DNA of 46,876 nt from an uncultured Chitinophagaceae bacterium (lineage in GTDB: Bacteria; Bacteroidota; Bacteroidia; Chitinophagales; Chitinophagaceae). Where the stretch lies: positions 1 to 46,876 of the forward strand of contig CAIRTF010000006.1 of assembly GCA_903881425.1 (NCBI GenBank). The letters run 5' to 3'. Shown here piece by piece: positions 4,064 through 21,941 of this stretch. A model generated the notes under the pieces. That model saw only the letters and a program-made list of their open reading frames with translations, was not told the origin of the DNA and did not search any database. How positions within the stretch are numbered: the stretch's first letter is position 1; each line of letters starts with the position of its first letter. The position numbers and the translations under genes are program-made.

Positions 4064-4987
4064 ATGAAACTATTATTGATCATTACTATTGCAGCGATGG
4101 GGATGTTATTTGTTTCATGTAACAATGTGACTAAAGACAAAAACAGCATTCAGGATTCGCCCAGGCAAGGAACTATCTATATCAGTGTAGATGAAAGTTT
4201 CAAGCCGGTGATTGAAGAGCAAATAAAAGTTTATCAGTCTTCTTATCCTGATGCACATATCATCGCATCGTATAAATCGGAAGTAGATTGTTTCAGGGAT
4301 TTGCAGAAAGATAGTACCAGAATGATTATTGTGGCAAGAGGATTAAAAAAAGAGGAATCTGATTTTTTTGAGAATCAATTATCTTTCCGACCCAGATATG
4401 ATGATGTAGCATACGATGCAGTGGCTTTGATTGTCAATATCAAATCGAAAGACACTGTATATACTTTGCAAGAAGTGAGAAATATTTTGTCCGGTAAAAA
4501 AAATGTTGAAGCAATAGTTGATGGAAATAATGCTACCAGTACCGTAAGGTTTTTGCAAGACAGTGTTTTAAGAGGAGCAGCTTTTGGCAAAAATGTTACA
4601 GCAGCGCATGGTAGTCATCAAGTGGTAGAAACTATATCCAATAAGGAAAACGCCATAGGTTTTGTAGGATTGAGTTGGGTGGGAGATTCTTATGATCCGC
4701 AACAACGAGCAAATCTGAAAAAAATTCGCTTATGTTTGTTGGAGTGTACAACTTGTGGTGAAAAAGGCTTTTTTGCCAAGCCAACACAAGCAACCATTAC
4801 TTATATGCAATATCCTTTGGCAAGGCCTTTGTATTGTATAGTAAAAGAGAATGCAACCGGATTGGGAACAGGCTTTATGAATTTTATGAATTTGGAAAGA
4901 GGGCAATTGATTTTCAGAAGAGCATTTTTAGCACCGGCAAAAATGAATTTGAATAAAAGAAAAACCAACATTTCAGAGCAAGAATAA
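4064..4987 (+). CDS. PstS-like phosphate-type substrate-binding lipoprotein
   Basis: 307 residues. A signal peptide ends in the lipobox LFVSC, with Cys19 as the lipidated residue, so it is probably anchored in an envelope membrane. The body has the periplasmic-binding-protein type II pattern of the PstS family: GTIYISVDESFKPVIEEQ, then VARGLKKEE, then YDAVALIVN, VDGNNATSTVRF and a late NAIGFVGLSW. It starts 1 nt after the preceding small gene. No PstC/A/B transporter genes are nearby, and in many Bacteroidota such proteins sit with TonB/ExbD and TPR genes, so it may serve as a sensor or accessory rather than a transporter component. The ligand is inferred from fold only. Confidence 0.82.
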   Translation: MKLLLIITIAAMGMLFVSCNNVTKDKNSIQDSPRQGTIYISVDESFKPVIEEQIKVYQSSYPDAHIIASYKSEVDCFRDLQKDSTRMIIVARGLKKEESDFFENQLSFRPRYDDVAYDAVALIVNIKSKDTVYTLQEVRNILSGKKNVEAIVDGNNATSTVRFLQDSVLRGAAFGKNVTAAHGSHQVVETISNKENAIGFVGLSWVGDSYDPQQRANLKKIRLCLLECTTCGEKGFFAKPTQATITYMQYPLARPLYCIVKENATGLGTGFMNFMNLERGQLIFRRAFLAPAKMNLNKRKTNISEQE

Positions 4988-5010
4988 AAACAACTATTAA
5001 ACACCACACG

Positions 5011-6753
5011 ATGAAGAAGACCATTTCTTTTTTTGTTGCAGTAGTATTATCTGCGAATGTGCTGATGGCACAAAGTGTACAGGATGGTATTAAACTCCTG
5101 AATTACGAAAAAAATAAAAGTGCCAGAGAGTTATTACAAAAATTGTATGATGGCAATTCAAAAGATCCTCAAACCATTTATTGGTTAGGTCAGGCTTTTA
5201 TTGCATTGGATGATATTAAAGGCGCAAAAGCATTGTACGAAAAAGCCATGAATGATGGTGTGAATGATCCATGGATTTGGGTTGGATCAGGCCATGTGCA
5301 ATTATTAGAAGCCGGCGATGTGAATGCGGCCAAACAAAAATTTGAACAAGCCATTACTTCAACAACAGAAACCAAAGGAAAAAACAAAGGCAAGCCCAGT
5401 GCAGCTATTTTAAATGCCATTGGCAGAGCGAATTCTTTCGGGCATTTAAACGGCATTGCAGGCGATAGCAAATTTGGAGATGTATTATACGGTATTGAAA
5501 AATTAAAACAAGCAGAAGCTATCGATCTGACCAATCCGGATATCGCTATCAATGAAGGATTAAGTTATCGCAAATTAGGTGGCGAATATGGTGGAGATGC
5601 GCAAAAAGCTTTTGAAGAAGCTATTCATCGCGATCCTAAAAATGCCCGTGCCATGTATTTAACAGGTAAAATATATGTAACACAGAATAACAAAGAATCT
5701 TTGGAAACTTATTTCAATAATGCTATTGCAGCTGACCCAACTTTTCCTCCGGTGTATCTTGCCTTATTTGAATTTTATTCTGATAAAGATGTAAATAAAG
5801 CAAAAGATTATATTGATAATTTCTTAAAGTATGCCGATAAAGATCCGAAGAATGATTTTTATTATGCTGATTATTTATTCCGTGCAGGTAAATACAATGA
5901 GTCATTAGCTAAAGCAAAAGAAATAGAAGCATCAGCAGGTATTGCTGCTGTTCCTGCGTTGAATATTTTATATGCATATAATTATGACAGAACAGGCGAT
6001 TCTGTTTTAGCAAAATCTTATGTTGAAAAATATTTCGCTTCAGTTCCTGTATCAGAAACCAAACCGGCTGATTATAATCTGGCAGTAAAAATTTTATCTA
6101 AATTTCAGGGAAGTGAAACCGCAGCTGTCGGGTATTTGCAAAAAGCAATCGATGCTGATTCAACCAAAGCAAATAAGATGGATTTTACCAATAAGGCCAT
6201 TGAAATTTATGGAAAATCAAAAATGTACACTGATCAGTTAGTATGGTTAAAAAAATTGCAAGACTTAAAAGGCGTTCCTCCAAATGAATATGATTTTTTT
6301 AGATTAACGAGTACTGCATTTAATGCAAAAGATTATATTCAAACAATGGCTTATGCAAAAGATTATATGACAAATTTCCCTGATAAACCGCAAGGATATT
6401 CTTTTTATAGAAGATCTTCTATAGCAGCCGATCCTGATACTTCTAAGGGAATTGCAATGGGAGCTTTGGATGTGTTAGATTCTCTTTATTCAAGAGATAA
6501 AGTAAAAAACAAAAAGCAAATATTCAATAACCTTTATTTTCAATTGAGTTATTATGTATATAAAACAAAAGAATTGGAAAAGGCTTTAGAAATAACAGAC
6601 AGAATGTTAGATCTATACCCTGAAGCAGGTGGCGAAGAAAATAAATATGCTTTAGATACTAAAGCCACCATACAAGAGGGGATTAACAAACAAAAAAATC
6701 CTAAATCTGGCAGTAAATCAAGTGGCGGAGCCGCTCCTCCAAAAAATAAATAA
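5011..6753 (+). CDS. Secreted TPR-repeat protein
   Basis: 580 residues with a Sec signal peptide (MKKTISFFVAVVLSANVLMAQS, cleaved near residue 20). Degenerate tetratricopeptide repeats run through most of the chain, for example the segments around ARELLQKLYDGN, DIKGAKALYEKAM, AQKAFEEAIHRDPKNARA and AVGYLQKAIDADS. The tail is Lys/Gly/Ser/Pro-rich and low complexity. TPRs are scaffolds for protein contacts, so a periplasmic adaptor role is likely. It is the last gene of the tonB cluster, 23 nt after the lipoprotein, and is followed by a strong terminator. Confidence 0.85.
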   Translation: MKKTISFFVAVVLSANVLMAQSVQDGIKLLNYEKNKSARELLQKLYDGNSKDPQTIYWLGQAFIALDDIKGAKALYEKAMNDGVNDPWIWVGSGHVQLLEAGDVNAAKQKFEQAITSTTETKGKNKGKPSAAILNAIGRANSFGHLNGIAGDSKFGDVLYGIEKLKQAEAIDLTNPDIAINEGLSYRKLGGEYGGDAQKAFEEAIHRDPKNARAMYLTGKIYVTQNNKESLETYFNNAIAADPTFPPVYLALFEFYSDKDVNKAKDYIDNFLKYADKDPKNDFYYADYLFRAGKYNESLAKAKEIEASAGIAAVPALNILYAYNYDRTGDSVLAKSYVEKYFASVPVSETKPADYNLAVKILSKFQGSETAAVGYLQKAIDADSTKANKMDFTNKAIEIYGKSKMYTDQLVWLKKLQDLKGVPPNEYDFFRLTSTAFNAKDYIQTMAYAKDYMTNFPDKPQGYSFYRRSSIAADPDTSKGIAMGALDVLDSLYSRDKVKNKKQIFNNLYFQLSYYVYKTKELEKALEITDRMLDLYPEAGGEENKYALDTKATIQEGINKQKNPKSGSKSSGGAAPPKNK

Positions 6754-6834: not shown

Positions 6835-7233
6835 ATGAATCTGATTTCTTTCATTTTAGATGCAACAGATAATACAGCTGCTAATTATTTTCCTATCGGT
6901 ATTCAATTAATTTTTGCTGCAGGCTTTGTGGCGGCTATGCTTGCTTTATCGGCATGGGTGGGACCGAAACGTAAAACAAGCGATAAGTTAGAAACTTTTA
7001 CCAGTGGTATCGCTACTCACGGAGATGCACGTCAGCCCATCGCCATTAAATATTTTTTAGTAGCAATCTTATTTGTATTGTTTGATGTGGAAGTGATTTT
7101 CTTTTATCCTTATGCCATTAATTTCAGGGCATTGGGGTGGGATGGCTTTCTGGCTGTATTGATGTTTGTTGCTTTTTTCCTGATAGGCTTTATTTATATC
7201 ATCAAAAAAGGAGCATTGGATTGGGAAGACTAA
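6835..7233 (+). CDS. nuoA: NADH-quinone oxidoreductase subunit A
   Basis: 132 residues with three membrane segments. It is a membrane-arm subunit of complex I near the quinone site. Family signatures are visible: KRKTSDKLETFTSGI for the loop normally reading K-x-x-x-Y/F-E-C-G, with the usual Cys absent here, then YFLVAILFVLFDVEVIFFYP, the hallmark of NuoA/ND3. First gene of the operon, 45 nt after the terminator T-tract. The replacement of the loop Cys by Thr or Ser is seen in other Bacteroidota as far as I recall. Confidence 0.95.
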   Translation: MNLISFILDATDNTAANYFPIGIQLIFAAGFVAAMLALSAWVGPKRKTSDKLETFTSGIATHGDARQPIAIKYFLVAILFVLFDVEVIFFYPYAINFRALGWDGFLAVLMFVAFFLIGFIYIIKKGALDWED

Positions 7234-9818: not shown

Positions 9819-10316
9819 GTGAAGTTTAATGAACAACAATTAACAGAGTTTAACCGATTGGTTGCACGTTATCCGCAAGGAAAACAAAAGAGTGCTTTAT
9901 TGCCGGTATTGCATTTGGCTCAGGAAAGTTTTGGCGGATGGTTAAGCAACGAAACAATGGATTATGTTGCAGAGTTATTGCAACTGAATCCGATTGAAGT
10001 ATATGAAGTAGCTACTTTTTACAGCATGTATAATTTAAAGCCTGTTGGTAAATATACATTTGAAGTTTGTCAAACAGGCCCGTGCATGTTAAGAGGTAGC
10101 AATGATATTATTGCATACATCAAAGAGAAATTAAACATCAAAGCCGGAGAAACGACTGCTGATGGTTTATTTACTTTGAAAACTGTAGAATGTTTAGGTG
10201 CTTGCGGTTATGCGCCAATGATGCAGTTGGGAAAAAATTATCGCGAACATTTAACTAAAGAAAAAGTAGATGCGATCATTGCTGAGTGCCAACAACACGC
10301 AACAGCCAATAATTAA
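9819..10316 (+). CDS. nuoE: NADH-quinone oxidoreductase subunit E
   Basis: 165 residues from the GTG at 9819. This 24-kDa peripheral subunit carries the N1a [2Fe-2S] cluster. Ligands are Cys84 and Cys89 in CQTGPC and Cys125 and Cys129 in CLGACG, with the thioredoxin-like fold and the helix segment VYEVATFYSMYNL before them. The frame is open back to an ATG at 9768, but that extension encodes only spacer repeat (MIFHLAFSIQNLKLK). Known NuoE proteins begin just before F-x-x-x-x-x-x-x-FN, so I prefer GTG at 9819, with 9813 and 9816 (also GTG) as alternatives. Confidence 0.93.
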   Translation: MKFNEQQLTEFNRLVARYPQGKQKSALLPVLHLAQESFGGWLSNETMDYVAELLQLNPIEVYEVATFYSMYNLKPVGKYTFEVCQTGPCMLRGSNDIIAYIKEKLNIKAGETTADGLFTLKTVECLGACGYAPMMQLGKNYREHLTKEKVDAIIAECQQHATANN

Positions 10317-10318
10317 GA

Positions 10319-10753
10319 ATGAAAAAAAGTTTTATCATATTATTCTTTTTATTTTCATCTGCGATTGTTTTTGCACAATCGAAAGATGAAAAAGAGTTGA
10401 CTGAAAAAACGTATTTATTAAGTCATACTGTTTTTGGAACAAAAGATAGTGCAACATTGGATGGCTTATTGGCTAAAACAGTTTCTTATGGTCATTCTCA
10501 TGGTAACTTGCAAACAAGAGAAGAGATGATCAAAGGCGTTAGTCATAATCTTTCCAATTATACAGATACTGCAGTATCAAGTATTAAAATTTTTATGGAA
10601 GACAATACCGCCATTGTTCGTTATCTTTTTAAAGCAAAAGAAAACAAGAAGGATGGTACTGTAACAGATTTAAATTTTAGTATGTTATTGGTTTGGATAA
10701 AAGAAAAAAGTGTTTGGAAATTAATGGGAAGACAAGCTGTTTCATTAAACTAA
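10319..10753 (+). CDS. Secreted NTF2-like (DUF4440/SnoaL-type) protein, first of a tandem pair
   Basis: 144 residues with a signal peptide (MKKSFIILFFLFSSAIVFAQ, cleaved near residue 20). The rest fits the NTF2-like cone fold of DUF4440 proteins: a long first helix with K-D-S-A-T-L-x-x-L-L, the short strand VSYGHSHG, a regulatory helix, then strands with DNTAIVRYLF and a final VWIKEKSVWKLMGRQAV. It starts 2 nt after the nuoE stop and so must be translated from the nuo transcript. It is not a complex I subunit. DUF4440 members may bind small ligands; no catalytic residue can be named. Confidence 0.8.
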   Translation: MKKSFIILFFLFSSAIVFAQSKDEKELTEKTYLLSHTVFGTKDSATLDGLLAKTVSYGHSHGNLQTREEMIKGVSHNLSNYTDTAVSSIKIFMEDNTAIVRYLFKAKENKKDGTVTDLNFSMLLVWIKEKSVWKLMGRQAVSLN

Positions 10754-10759
10754 TCTGAG

Positions 10760-11191
10760 ATGAAGAAGAGTTCATTTTTTATTTTTTTTATTGCTTTCTC
10801 ATTTCATTCGTTTGCTCAGAATGAATCGCAAAAAGGGGAAGTGATGATGAAATTGCTGATGCTGAAAACTGCCTTGGTTGCAAAAGACAGCATAACATTA
10901 TCAAAGCTTTTAGCTGATGATGTTACCTATGGGCACACAAATGGTTTGATACAAAGCAAATCAGCATTAATTCATTCTGTGATGACCGGAGAACAAGATT
11001 ATAAAAGCATTGAACCATCAGTCATGAATATCCGAATCTTTGATAAAACAGCAGTGGTTAATATGGATTCGAAAGTGGTATTGAATTATAATAAACAGCC
11101 TATGCAGATTGATATGAAAATAACTTTTGTTTGGGTCAATAAAAATAATGATTGGCAATTAGAAGCAAGACAAGCAGTAAAAATTAATTAA
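10760..11191 (+). CDS. Secreted NTF2-like (DUF4440/SnoaL-type) protein, second of a tandem pair
   Basis: 143 residues, 6 nt after its paralogue. A signal peptide (MKKSSFFIFFIAFSFHSFAQ) is followed by the same fold: AKDSITLSKLLADDVTYGHTNG, FDKTAVVNMDSKVVL and VWVNKNNDWQLEARQAVKIN. The shared YGH-S/T-x-G motif and identical ending pattern (W-x-L-x-x-R-Q-A-V) show an old tandem duplication, but overall identity is modest. Being exported, both would act in the periplasm or outside while being made with complex I. The function is unknown. Confidence 0.8.
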   Translation: MKKSSFFIFFIAFSFHSFAQNESQKGEVMMKLLMLKTALVAKDSITLSKLLADDVTYGHTNGLIQSKSALIHSVMTGEQDYKSIEPSVMNIRIFDKTAVVNMDSKVVLNYNKQPMQIDMKITFVWVNKNNDWQLEARQAVKIN

Positions 11192-11227: not shown

Positions 11228-12586
11228 ATGAGTAGAAAATTATTATTAGAAAAAGCACATGTGGAAGGCATTCGTTATTACGATGTATATCGTCGCGAAG
11301 GCGGCTATCGCAGCGTGGAAAAGGCTTTAAAAGAACTGGGACCTGAAGCAATTGTGGAAGAAGTGAAGAAAAGTGGATTGCGTGGTCGAGGTGGTGCGGG
11401 ATTTCCGGCGGGTATGAAATGGAGTTTCATTGCAAAGCCCGAAGGCGTGCCACGTCATTTGGTATGCAATGCAGATGAAAGTGAACCCGGCACTTTTAAG
11501 GATAGATATTTAATGGAATTTTTGCCGCATTTATTAATTGAGGGTTTGATTGTTTCATCTTTTGCATTGGGTAGTAATGATACTTATATTTATATACGTG
11601 GAGAATATGCATGGATTGTTGATATTTTAGAACAAGCCATTACTGAAGCAAAAGACAATGGATGGTTAGGAAAAAATATTTTAGGAACCGGCTTCGATTG
11701 TAATATTCATGTACAACGTGGTGCTGGTGCTTATATATGCGGAGAAGAAACGGCATTATTAGAAAGCTTAGAAGGGAAACGCGGTAATCCAAGATTGAAA
11801 CCACCATTTCCTGCAGTGAAAGGTGTTTGGGACAGACCTACTGTTGTAAATAATGTTGAAACATTAGCGGCTGTTGTTCCCATCATAAATATGGGCGGTG
11901 ATGAATATGCAAAGATTGGTGTGGGCAGAAGTACAGGTACTAAATTAATTTCTGCATGTGGTAATATCAATAAACCCGGTGTTTACGAAATTGATATGAC
12001 CATCAGCGTAGAAGATTTTATATACAGTGATGAATATTGTGGTGGTATTGCAAACGGAAAAAAATTAAAAGCTTGTATTCCCGGTGGTTCATCAGTTCCA
12101 ATTCTTCCTGCTAATTTATTATTGAAAACAGCGAAGGGTGAAACGCGTTATATGAATTATGAAAGTTTAAGTGACGGAGGCTTTGCATCAGGAAGTATGA
12201 TGGGTAGTGGCGGATTTATTGTTTTAGATGAAGATCAATGTGTAGTAAAAAATACATTAACCTTAGCAAGATTTTATCGTCATGAAAGCTGCGGACAATG
12301 TTCGCCTTGCCGAGAAGGAACTGGTTGGATGGAAAAAATATTACACAACATCGAATACGGAAAAGGTAAGCTGAGTGATATAGATTTATTATGGGATATT
12401 CAAAGTAAAATTGAAGGCAATACGATTTGTCCGTTAGGTGATGCAGCAGCATGGCCTGTTGCAGCAGCTATCAGACATTTCAGAGATGAATTTGAATGGC
12501 ATGTATTAAATCCCGAAGAATCACAAAAAAGAAATTATGGTTTGGCGCATTATGCAGATGCAATTCATGTGCCGGTAACAGTTTAA
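11228..12586 (+). CDS. nuoF: NADH-quinone oxidoreductase subunit F
   Basis: 452 residues. This is the 51-kDa NADH-binding subunit with FMN and cluster N3. The Gly-rich NADH site GLRGRGGAGFPAGMKW is at about residues 51-66, the FMN-region block CNADESEPGTFKDR follows, then GAGAYICGEETALLESLEGKRG. Cluster N3 ligands are Cys355, Cys358 and Cys361 (ESCGQCSPCREGTGW) and Cys401 (NTICPLGDAA). Length is normal. It follows the NTF2-like pair by 36 nt and precedes the broken GxxExxY gene. Confidence 0.98.
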   Translation: MSRKLLLEKAHVEGIRYYDVYRREGGYRSVEKALKELGPEAIVEEVKKSGLRGRGGAGFPAGMKWSFIAKPEGVPRHLVCNADESEPGTFKDRYLMEFLPHLLIEGLIVSSFALGSNDTYIYIRGEYAWIVDILEQAITEAKDNGWLGKNILGTGFDCNIHVQRGAGAYICGEETALLESLEGKRGNPRLKPPFPAVKGVWDRPTVVNNVETLAAVVPIINMGGDEYAKIGVGRSTGTKLISACGNINKPGVYEIDMTISVEDFIYSDEYCGGIANGKKLKACIPGGSSVPILPANLLLKTAKGETRYMNYESLSDGGFASGSMMGSGGFIVLDEDQCVVKNTLTLARFYRHESCGQCSPCREGTGWMEKILHNIEYGKGKLSDIDLLWDIQSKIEGNTICPLGDAAAWPVAAAIRHFRDEFEWHVLNPEESQKRNYGLAHYADAIHVPVTV

Positions 12587-12591
12587 TTTTA

Positions 12592-12616
12592 CGCAACGAT
12601 GGCAACGCAAACAACG
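12592..12616 (+). repeat. Left inverted repeat of the GxxExxY cassette
   Basis: 25 nt composed of CGCAACG, then GCAACGCAAACAACG, beginning 5 nt after the nuoF stop. Its reverse complement matches 13018-13043 at about 20 positions with one gap. The presumed ATG of the GxxExxY gene (12599) lies inside it. Confidence 0.65.
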
Positions 12617-13007
12617 AATGCCATGGAAGAAAAATATGAAAATGAACTTGCGAAACTGGCATTGGATATTTGCTTTCGAATTCATCGCTTATACGGTCCG
12701 GGTTTATTAGAGAGTGTGTATGAAGAATTTTTTGTTATGAGTTGAATAAAGAAGATGTTTTTTTGAAAGGCAAATGCCTATTTCATTAATACATGAAAGT
12801 ATTAAGTTGGAAGTTGGTTTTAGGGCAGATGTGATTATAGATAAAACTTTGCTTATTGAATTCAAAAGTGTAGAAGCATTGACTAATATTCATTTTAAGC
12901 AAGTTCAGACTTATTTAAAATTGTGTGATTTAAAATTAGGGTTGCTGATTAATTTTAATCATGTTTATTAAAAAGACGGCATACATAGAATTGCCAATAA
13001 TTTGTAA
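12599..13007 (+). pseudogene. GxxExxY family protein (PDDEXK-like), broken
   Basis: Three frames together spell a GxxExxY protein (PF13366). Frame 1, 12599-12745: KLALDICFRIHRLYGPGLLESVYEE, containing the name-giving G-x-x-E-x-x-Y. Frame 2, 12736-12780: YELNKEDVFLKGK. Frame 3, 12774-12971: LEVGFRADVIIDKTLLIEFKSVEAL, with the D and E-x-K nuclease-like residues, then QVQTYLKLCDLKLGLLINFN. After an in-frame TAA at 12969 the expected tail KDGIHRIANNL continues to a TAA at 13007. So there are two frameshifts and one nonsense change; base-calling errors could explain some but hardly all. The intact family has a restriction-endonuclease-like fold of unknown role. It sits between nuoF and nuoG, bounded by inverted repeats. 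Confidence 0.85.
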
Positions 13008-15238: not shown

Positions 15239-15245
15239 TTTCTTT

Positions 15246-15482
15246 ATGAGCATATTTGTTTTAGCAAATAAGAATTTAAAAGGTAAGTGGCGCAAAATAT
15301 TAGTTAGCTTATATGCTGTGCATCTACTTTTATTTTCAGAATTTATTTATCTGAGTAAAACCAAAATTGTAAGCAGTGATACTATTGGCAATCTCATTTT
15401 AGTTTGGATGATTATAGCAATTAGTATTTGTGTTGCTGAATTCTTGTTTCACAGAAGTATGAAGAATAGAATAAAAAGTTGA
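15246..15482 (+). CDS. Small two-helix membrane protein inside the nuo operon
   Basis: 78 residues: a basic N-terminus (NKNLKGKWRK), hydrophobic helix about 18-36, a short polar loop (SKTKIVSSDT), helix about 46-64 and a basic tail. I recognise no named family. It starts 7 nt after nuoH and is cotranscribed with nuo. It is not one of the 14 core subunits. After it, 15483-15604 is a 122-nt spacer with no convincing gene; its purine-rich left part (GAACAGAAAGTTGAAGAGTG and following) looks like repeat material. Confidence 0.65.
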   Translation: MSIFVLANKNLKGKWRKILVSLYAVHLLLFSEFIYLSKTKIVSSDTIGNLILVWMIIAISICVAEFLFHRSMKNRIKS

Positions 15483-15604
15483 ATGCAGAACAGAAAGTTG
15501 AAGAGTGCGACGCAAGTAAAGATGAGTAGAGAGATAAAGTTGGAATCAATAGGTTATAAAAATATTTTTGCGAACAAATTAAAATAGTCGGAGCGGTAAA
15601 ATTT

Positions 15605-20546: not shown

Positions 20547-21941
20547 ATGAATGCAATTATATTTTCGGCTTTAGCAGGTGTGGTGATGATGTTCAGTGGC
20601 ATCTTCACCAAGAACACATCTATCATTACAAACGTTGCACGAGTTGCATTGGCTGTTTTGATTGCAGTAAATTTATTAGATACTTACGGTGGTTGGATGA
20701 TTGCTGTTGATACTAAAAATTTACTCTCATTCAATAAATTCGGTTTCTTTTTCAATACCATTTTATTTGTTGCCACATTTTTATTTTTTGTTTTAAGCGG
20801 AAGAGATATTGAAAAAGTTGGCAGCTATACGGCAGAATATTATGCATTGATATTTTTCTCTTTATGCGGTATTGCGGTACTTACTTCTTTCAATAATTTA
20901 TTGATGATGTTTTTAGGAGTAGAGATCATGTCAATTCCTTTATACATTTTAACCGGTGCAGACAAAAAGAATTTAAAAAGTAATGAAGCATCGCTGAAAT
21001 ATTTTTTAATGGGATCTTTTTCAACAGGCATCATGTTAATGGGTATTACATTAGTGTATGGTGCAACAGGTAATTTTAATTTGCCGCCTATCAGTTCGGC
21101 AGTTACCGGTGCAGTGGTGAGTGATAGTATCATTGGTCCCTTAGGTTTATTATTGATCTTTGTTTCATTATGTTTTAAAGTATCGGCAGCACCTTTTCAT
21201 TTCTGGACACCCGATGTATATGATGGTGCTCCAAGTGTCTTCACTTCTTTTATGGCAACCATTATCAAAGCAGCCGGTTTCTTTGCCTTTATTAAATTGT
21301 TTGAAGAAAGAAGCAGTGATCTGAGGGTATCCTGGAAAATCATCATGCCTGTTATTATCATTGCAACATTACTGGCAGGAAATATCACAGCAGTATTTCA
21401 ACAAAGTGTAAAACGCATGTTGGCGTATTCCAGTATTGCGCAAGCAGGTTTTATGTTATTTGTAGTGTATGCAAATAATAACAGTATTGGTAAAGAAGGT
21501 ATATTATTATATGCAGCTGCGTATAGTTTAGCAACGATTGGCATTTTTGCTATTTTAATCAGAATGAAAGATTACACTTTCAATGGATATAACGGACTTG
21601 CCAAAAAAGAACCTTTCATTGCTGCAGTAAATACTATTTTGCTTTTATCATTGGCGGGAATACCTTTAACAGCGGGCTTCTTCGCAAAGTATTATATGTT
21701 AGCAGCTGCTATTAATGCAGGTGGAAAATCTGTTTTATGGTTGGTAGTAATTGCAGTTTTATTTGCAGCGGTGAGCGTGTATTATTATTTCCGAGTGATA
21801 CAAGCCATGTATTTTAAAGAAGGCGACGCTGAAGTAGAAAACGTAAACAATCGTTTTAAGTTTGGATTATTAATCATTGCTGCATTAATCATTTCAATAG
21901 GTATTTTACCATCCGTCCTTTTGAATTGGTTCTATTTCTAA
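20547..21941 (+). CDS. nuoN: NADH-quinone oxidoreductase subunit N
   Basis: 464 residues with about 14 helices. It is an antiporter-like proton-pumping subunit and the last gene of the operon. Signatures: MFLGVEIMSIPLYILTG (conserved Glu), KVSAAPFHFWTPDVYDGAPSVFTSFMATIIKAAGF and KRMLAYSSIAQAGFML. The 94 nt after it hold no clear terminator; the only hairpin is ATTGG/CCAAT around 21983-21998, without a T-run, so some read-through to the next gene is possible. Confidence 0.97.
   Translation: MNAIIFSALAGVVMMFSGIFTKNTSIITNVARVALAVLIAVNLLDTYGGWMIAVDTKNLLSFNKFGFFFNTILFVATFLFFVLSGRDIEKVGSYTAEYYALIFFSLCGIAVLTSFNNLLMMFLGVEIMSIPLYILTGADKKNLKSNEASLKYFLMGSFSTGIMLMGITLVYGATGNFNLPPISSAVTGAVVSDSIIGPLGLLLIFVSLCFKVSAAPFHFWTPDVYDGAPSVFTSFMATIIKAAGFFAFIKLFEERSSDLRVSWKIIMPVIIIATLLAGNITAVFQQSVKRMLAYSSIAQAGFMLFVVYANNNSIGKEGILLYAAAYSLATIGIFAILIRMKDYTFNGYNGLAKKEPFIAAVNTILLLSLAGIPLTAGFFAKYYMLAAAINAGGKSVLWLVVIAVLFAAVSVYYYFRVIQAMYFKEGDAEVENVNNRFKFGLLIIAALIISIGILPSVLLNWFYF

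Follow-up and report, generated by a model that had tools for sequence, protein, structure and literature searches.

Genes for predicted exported DUF4440 proteins recur between nuoE and nuoF in the complex I operons of Chitinophagaceae

Operons for respiratory complex I are usually taken as closed sets of subunit genes, among which nuoE and nuoF encode cytoplasmic subunits of the enzyme. The Chitinophagaceae operon described here retains the nuoA-N order of a bacterial nuo operon, but differs from it in that exported, non-nuo genes lie between nuoE and nuoF. The products of the two inserted genes, here called p1 and p2, match Pfam DUF4440 (PF14534), a family without assigned function, and resemble it in profile, fold and one-domain exported form. 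Unlike DUF4440 in general, their subfamilies are tied to the nuoE-nuoF junction, and the unlinked copies form a clade of their own. The best sequence-profile relatives of known structure are 2r4i, from Cytophaga hutchinsonii (CHU_1428; E 6.5e-9), and 3fsd, a Rhodospirillum rubrum "NTF2-like protein of unknown function in nutrient uptake" (E 5.9e-7). The NTF2-like fold also includes enzymes of the ketosteroid-isomerase-like, LinA and scytalone-dehydratase-like types. Among the hits listed by searches of the open-access literature, none described a DUF4440 or NTF2-like gene within a nuo operon.

The window, meaning the whole 46,876-nt stretch of Chitinophagaceae DNA that was analysed, contains a complete nuo operon, from nuoA at 6835 to nuoN at 21941. 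The features in and around the insert are as follows:

9819..10316, plus strand: nuoE (Pfam 2Fe-2S_thioredx, E 3.8e-57)
10319..10753, plus strand: p1, predicted exported DUF4440 (NTF2-like) protein of the alpha subfamily, 144 aa (Pfam DUF4440, E 3.3e-14)
10760..11191, plus strand: p2, predicted exported DUF4440 protein, 143 aa, second-position paralogue (Pfam DUF4440, E 2.9e-16)
11228..12586, plus strand: nuoF (Pfam Complex1_51K, E 5.7e-47; NADH_4Fe-4S, E 1.2e-31)
12599..12971, plus strand: GxxExxY-type PDDEXK_3 gene, apparently broken, in two frames (12599-12745 and 12774-12971)

The GTG at 9819 matches the conserved N-terminus of NuoE, within a frame that is open from 9768. From the nuoE stop there are 2 nt to p1, 6 nt from p1 to p2 and 36 nt from p2 to nuoF. 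The reading frames, coordinates and 2-nt and 6-nt spacings given in an earlier sequence-only reading proved accurate, as did its description of both genes as co-directional with nuoE and tightly packed behind it. Promoter-like and terminator-like sites between 9700 and 11400 are no more numerous than expected by chance. From this layout we infer that p1 and p2 are probably co-transcribed with the nuo genes and translationally coupled to nuoE. The GC content of p1 (29.4%) and p2 (32.2%) is similar to that of nuoC (30.6%), with nuoD-F higher at 36.9–38.5%. A search at E ≤ 1e-3 of the genome to which the window belongs gave no third DUF4440 gene. Elsewhere in the operon, the nuoH-nuoI gap (15239-15604, ~366 nt) holds a 78-aa open frame, and nuoI may begin upstream of its listed start. 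On the 5' side of nuoA, on the same strand, positions 4064-6753 presumably encode a substrate-binding-like lipoprotein and a TPR-like protein.

Both proteins score well above the DUF4440 gathering cut-off of 25.2 bits (p1 53.6 bits, p2 60.3 bits), and they share 33% identity over 129 residues (E 2e-18); an NCBIfam search gave no match above a cut-off. In p1, a predicted signal peptide covers approximately residues 1-19, followed by YGHSHG at 57-62 and RQ at 138-139; the p2 version of the first motif is YGHTNG. By a sequence rule, each N-terminus is a hydrophobic stretch ending in A-Q, consistent with the signal peptides that had been proposed for both proteins. PMC5837995 describes a Q-rule for Bacteroidetes, in which Gln lies right after the signal-peptidase cleavage site. 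A regular-expression search found a signal-peptide-like start in 52 of the 54 non-fused nuo-linked DUF4440 proteins, and Gln after the predicted cut in 46 of those 52, so that the set as a whole is probably exported by Sec and signal peptidase I. AlphaFold models of p1 and p2 are confident (pLDDT 87.3 and 87.5). Compared with NTF2-like chains using VIA-align, the p1 model gives Z scores of 18.3 (3rob), 18.1 (2r4i), 17.2 (3fsd) and 16.3 (NTF2), and thus has the alpha+beta, cone-shaped fold of this superfamily. The fold of the ketosteroid-isomerase-like, LinA and scytalone-dehydratase-like proteins is like that of p1 at Z ~16, with 6–14% identity among the matches seen. The NTF2-like identity assigned in the sequence-only reading is therefore supported by Pfam for both proteins and by structure for p1, and the structure prediction that it called for yields, for p1, a fold of the ligand-binding NTF2-like kind (Z 16–18).

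The same reading had called for a survey of related nuo operons, holding that absence from all of them would point to a one-off insertion. We began with 147 same-family genomes. Divergent nuoF rows (~45% identity) and unlisted rows were left out, which gave 140 genomes with nuoF, 137 with nuoE and 135 with both; 10 with the two genes on different contigs or strands were dropped, and 125 with contiguous nuoE-nuoF remained. The gap holds a DUF4440 gene in 45 of these, only other genes in 26 and no ORF of at least 80 aa in 54, a count that includes G070, with a false negative gap at a contig end. A one-off insertion is ruled out by these 45 genomes. Gaps of at least 300 nt were present in 72 of the 125, and five of the "empty" genomes have gaps of 153–567 nt without an 80-aa ORF. 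In six further genomes with broken contigs or a rearranged operon (G006, G062, G068, G083, G102, G152), DUF4440 adjoins one nuo neighbour; these entered the protein tree and stand outside the 45/125. A collection of named genomes gave 11 loci with an alpha copy, all from Chitinophagaceae and including Flavisolibacter nicotianae (strain X7X), F. longurius and a Terrimonas MAG; in every one, the gene is preceded by nuoE and followed by nuoF. The window comes from a fragmented assembly of 217 contigs, which could suggest misassembly or miscalled genes, but dozens of independently assembled genomes, F. nicotianae X7X among them, show this arrangement too and make such an explanation negligible.

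Outside Chitinophagaceae, DUF4440 was found in the gap in none of 100 genomes with contiguous nuoE-nuoF (71 class-level, 29 order-level). In this count, gaps shorter than ~250 nt were assumed to leave no room for the gene, and the 13 larger-gap loci that were read gave no profile match. The order-level genomes were counted by eye after six split ones had been dropped, and the class survey omitted nuoF rows of ~50% identity. The difference between 45/125 and 0/100 gives p ~6e-14 by Fisher's test, which treats the genomes as independent despite their relatedness. Gaps of at least 300 nt were present in 12 of the 100, and we take the gap outside the family to receive toxin-antitoxin-like and other small genes. 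Elsewhere in the class, 13 more DUF4440 proteins were found in 12 non-family genomes. The best profile is gamma, the unlinked type, for six of them (5 at ~160 bits, 1 at 108) and delta for two, whereas the other five match the second-position profile best but weakly (80–98 bits); none of the 13 is of the alpha type.

DUF4440 is not the only occupant of the junction. Among the 71 occupied family genomes, the gap also takes VOC/PhnB-like (18), NlpE-like (10), AHSA1/SRPBCC (5), AlkD-like (4) and aspartyl-protease-like (4) genes; these categories were assigned by motif, with one or two representatives per type checked in Pfam, and one extra AHSA1-like row was left under "other". In L100, L101, L102 and L104, the gap holds a DUF4440 domain fused behind a SecDF P1-head domain as one exported protein, by profile matches in L100 and L102 and by sequence likeness in L101 and L104. 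Across 21 whole operons (the window and 20 chosen genomes, 14 of which were chosen for their nuoE-nuoF insert), gaps of at least 300 nt occur at nuoE-nuoF in 15 and at nuoF-nuoG in 10, against 6 of 230 other junctions. The tenants of nuoF-nuoG are GxxExxY genes, toxin-antitoxin-like and other small modules. The two PDDEXK_3 pieces found there in the window match at E 5.4e-4, which is below the Pfam cut-off, and 4.6e-17, and L108 has one intact PDDEXK_3 frame at this junction. By sequence likeness, L241, L243, L246, L251 and L254 carry a GxxExxY gene at nuoF-nuoG as well.

These inserts would fit a reading in which p1 and p2 are passengers, the flanks of nuoF tolerating inserts and DUF4440 merely riding in an operon that is strongly expressed, without gaining anything from having complex I genes as neighbours. 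Unrelated genes occupy the same gap, and long gaps gather at the two junctions that flank nuoF, albeit in a sample enriched for nuoE-nuoF inserts. Against it, DUF4440 recurs at nuoE-nuoF and was not found at nuoF-nuoG in the operons examined. We regard the passenger reading as a possible, though rather unlikely, explanation, and the history of the genes bears on it from both sides. On a nuoE+nuoF tree of the 125 genomes, the presence of DUF4440 changes 22 times, fewer than in any of 500 shuffles (mean 36.8). DUF4440 in this slot is old within Chitinophagaceae and has often been lost or regained; the 22 changes imply frequent loss or gain, which fits a passenger as well.

A tree of 111 DUF4440 proteins, 58 nuo-linked and 53 encoded elsewhere, shows only 3 changes of location against a shuffled mean of 37.2, although many inner forks are weak in this alignment of 119 columns. 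The nuo-linked copies are thus old subfamilies, and not ones repeatedly drawn from unlinked genes, as a passenger might be; 47 of the unlinked copies group apart in a clade of their own. The alpha clade, to which p1 belongs, has 19 members, 17 of them nuo-linked. The other two (in G001, from the window's genus, and in G025) are encoded at a distance from nuo, with a VOC gene between nuoE and nuoF instead, so that the linkage of an alpha copy to nuo can be broken. Two nuo-linked copies occur in seven genomes (G000, G011, G020, G068, G092, G149, G152), and the alpha gene comes first in all seven. In the protein tree, p2 forms a divergent pair with its second-position counterpart in G068, and has no firm place among the other second-position genes. 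Since the nearest relatives of p1 are the p1 proteins of other genomes and not p2, the pair is ancient. The proposal that p1 and p2 are diverged duplicates needs qualifying, since a recent duplication within this genome is ruled out by the protein tree.

The spacing of the genes and the constraint on them also weigh against passengers that simply drift. In 28 of the 36 loci with DUF4440 immediately behind nuoE, its start lies -4 to +8 nt from the end of the nuoE stop, the choice of start codon being partly set by the analyst. None of the 56 minus-strand ORFs in the gaps matched the DUF4440 profile, so the gene is always in the operon direction. Pairwise dN/dS is ~0.07–0.24 where dS was computable; many dS values are saturated, including those of most alpha pairs. 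With dN/dS low and the linkage to nuoE old and tight, the word "passenger" does not by itself do justice to these genes.

Old and tight linkage to nuoE could equally be expected of a complex I factor, with p1 and p2 acting on the periplasmic face in assembly, stability or a quinone- or redox-linked step. The closest relatives agree with this, since in L108, L109 and L110 p1 is 85, 82 and 76% identical and nuoE 83, 85 and 75%. Elsewhere, however, identity drops far faster than that of nuoE (in L117, 50% versus 81%). Exported proteins could not meet the cytoplasmic NuoE and NuoF, and a subunit or assembly factor would be present in most operons of the clade, whereas DUF4440 is missing from 80 of the 125 family operons that retain nuoE and nuoF, and from all 100 checked outside, which makes such a role unlikely. 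The same absences, together with the unrelated genes in the gap, weaken an assembly or redox link.

The sequence-only reading had also suggested that YGH-S/T-x-G may mark a binding site. Every one of the 111 proteins, including the 53 encoded away from nuo, has His59 and Arg138, and Tyr57, Ser60, Gly62, Trp133 and Gln139 are each kept in 104–109 of the 111. The motif is ruled out as a mark of complex I, being equally invariant in unlinked copies; its residues would instead mark the protein's own chemistry. The position of the His-Ser pair is occupied by IP in 2r4i and DH in 3fsd. A motif common to unlinked relatives further speaks against a subunit role, and we consider the complex I factor improbable overall. 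Among the 53 unlinked DUF4440 loci, a gene that we take to be GH28-like lies near 10 and one that we take to be GH43-like near 8, a hint that these copies may serve in loci for the use of pectin; in this neighbour search (L132-L171, L179-L191), one cluster of 10 antisense-looking ORFs was ignored.

The explanation that we favour, with somewhat better than even confidence, is that p1 and p2 are co-expressed, exported accessory proteins that bind or convert a small molecule and are long-standing guests of the slot, not complex I subunits. Their ligand or substrate would be a small organic molecule encountered beyond the cytoplasm, and they would be co-expressed with complex I by sitting in its transcript behind nuoE. 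The nuoE-nuoF junction of Chitinophagaceae would be a long-lived variable slot of the operon, in which DUF4440 is the commonest tenant. The gene has probably been passed down over long spans, at times as two copies with alpha ahead of the other, and has often disappeared, become fused or given way to small genes of other kinds. Its absence from 80 of the 125 operons indicates that the gene is dispensable. We infer that the pocket of p1 and p2 holds a ligand and that being made with respiratory enzymes is of benefit. A more specific version, which is speculative and decidedly unlikely as it stands, would have Chitinophagaceae carry a lineage-specific exported module, consisting of the DUF4440 alpha protein alone or together with a second paralogue, that is dosed with complex I through translational coupling to nuoE. 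On the outer side of the inner membrane, it would bind a metabolite that is lipophilic or redox-active, for example a quinone-like compound or an electrophilic by-product of respiration. If it were true, the VOC/PhnB, NlpE-like and SRPBCC tenants would be different responses to one and the same respiratory stress.

In Chitinophagaceae, nuoF is thus flanked by two variable slots that take different genes: those for pocket-fold and exported proteins at nuoE-nuoF, and GxxExxY and toxin-antitoxin-like genes at nuoF-nuoG. If these tenants matter for respiration, they offer a route to new physiology linked to complex I; if they do not, the slots preserve a clear record, left by nature, of genes becoming established within an essential operon. 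In both cases, they provide a handle on DUF4440.
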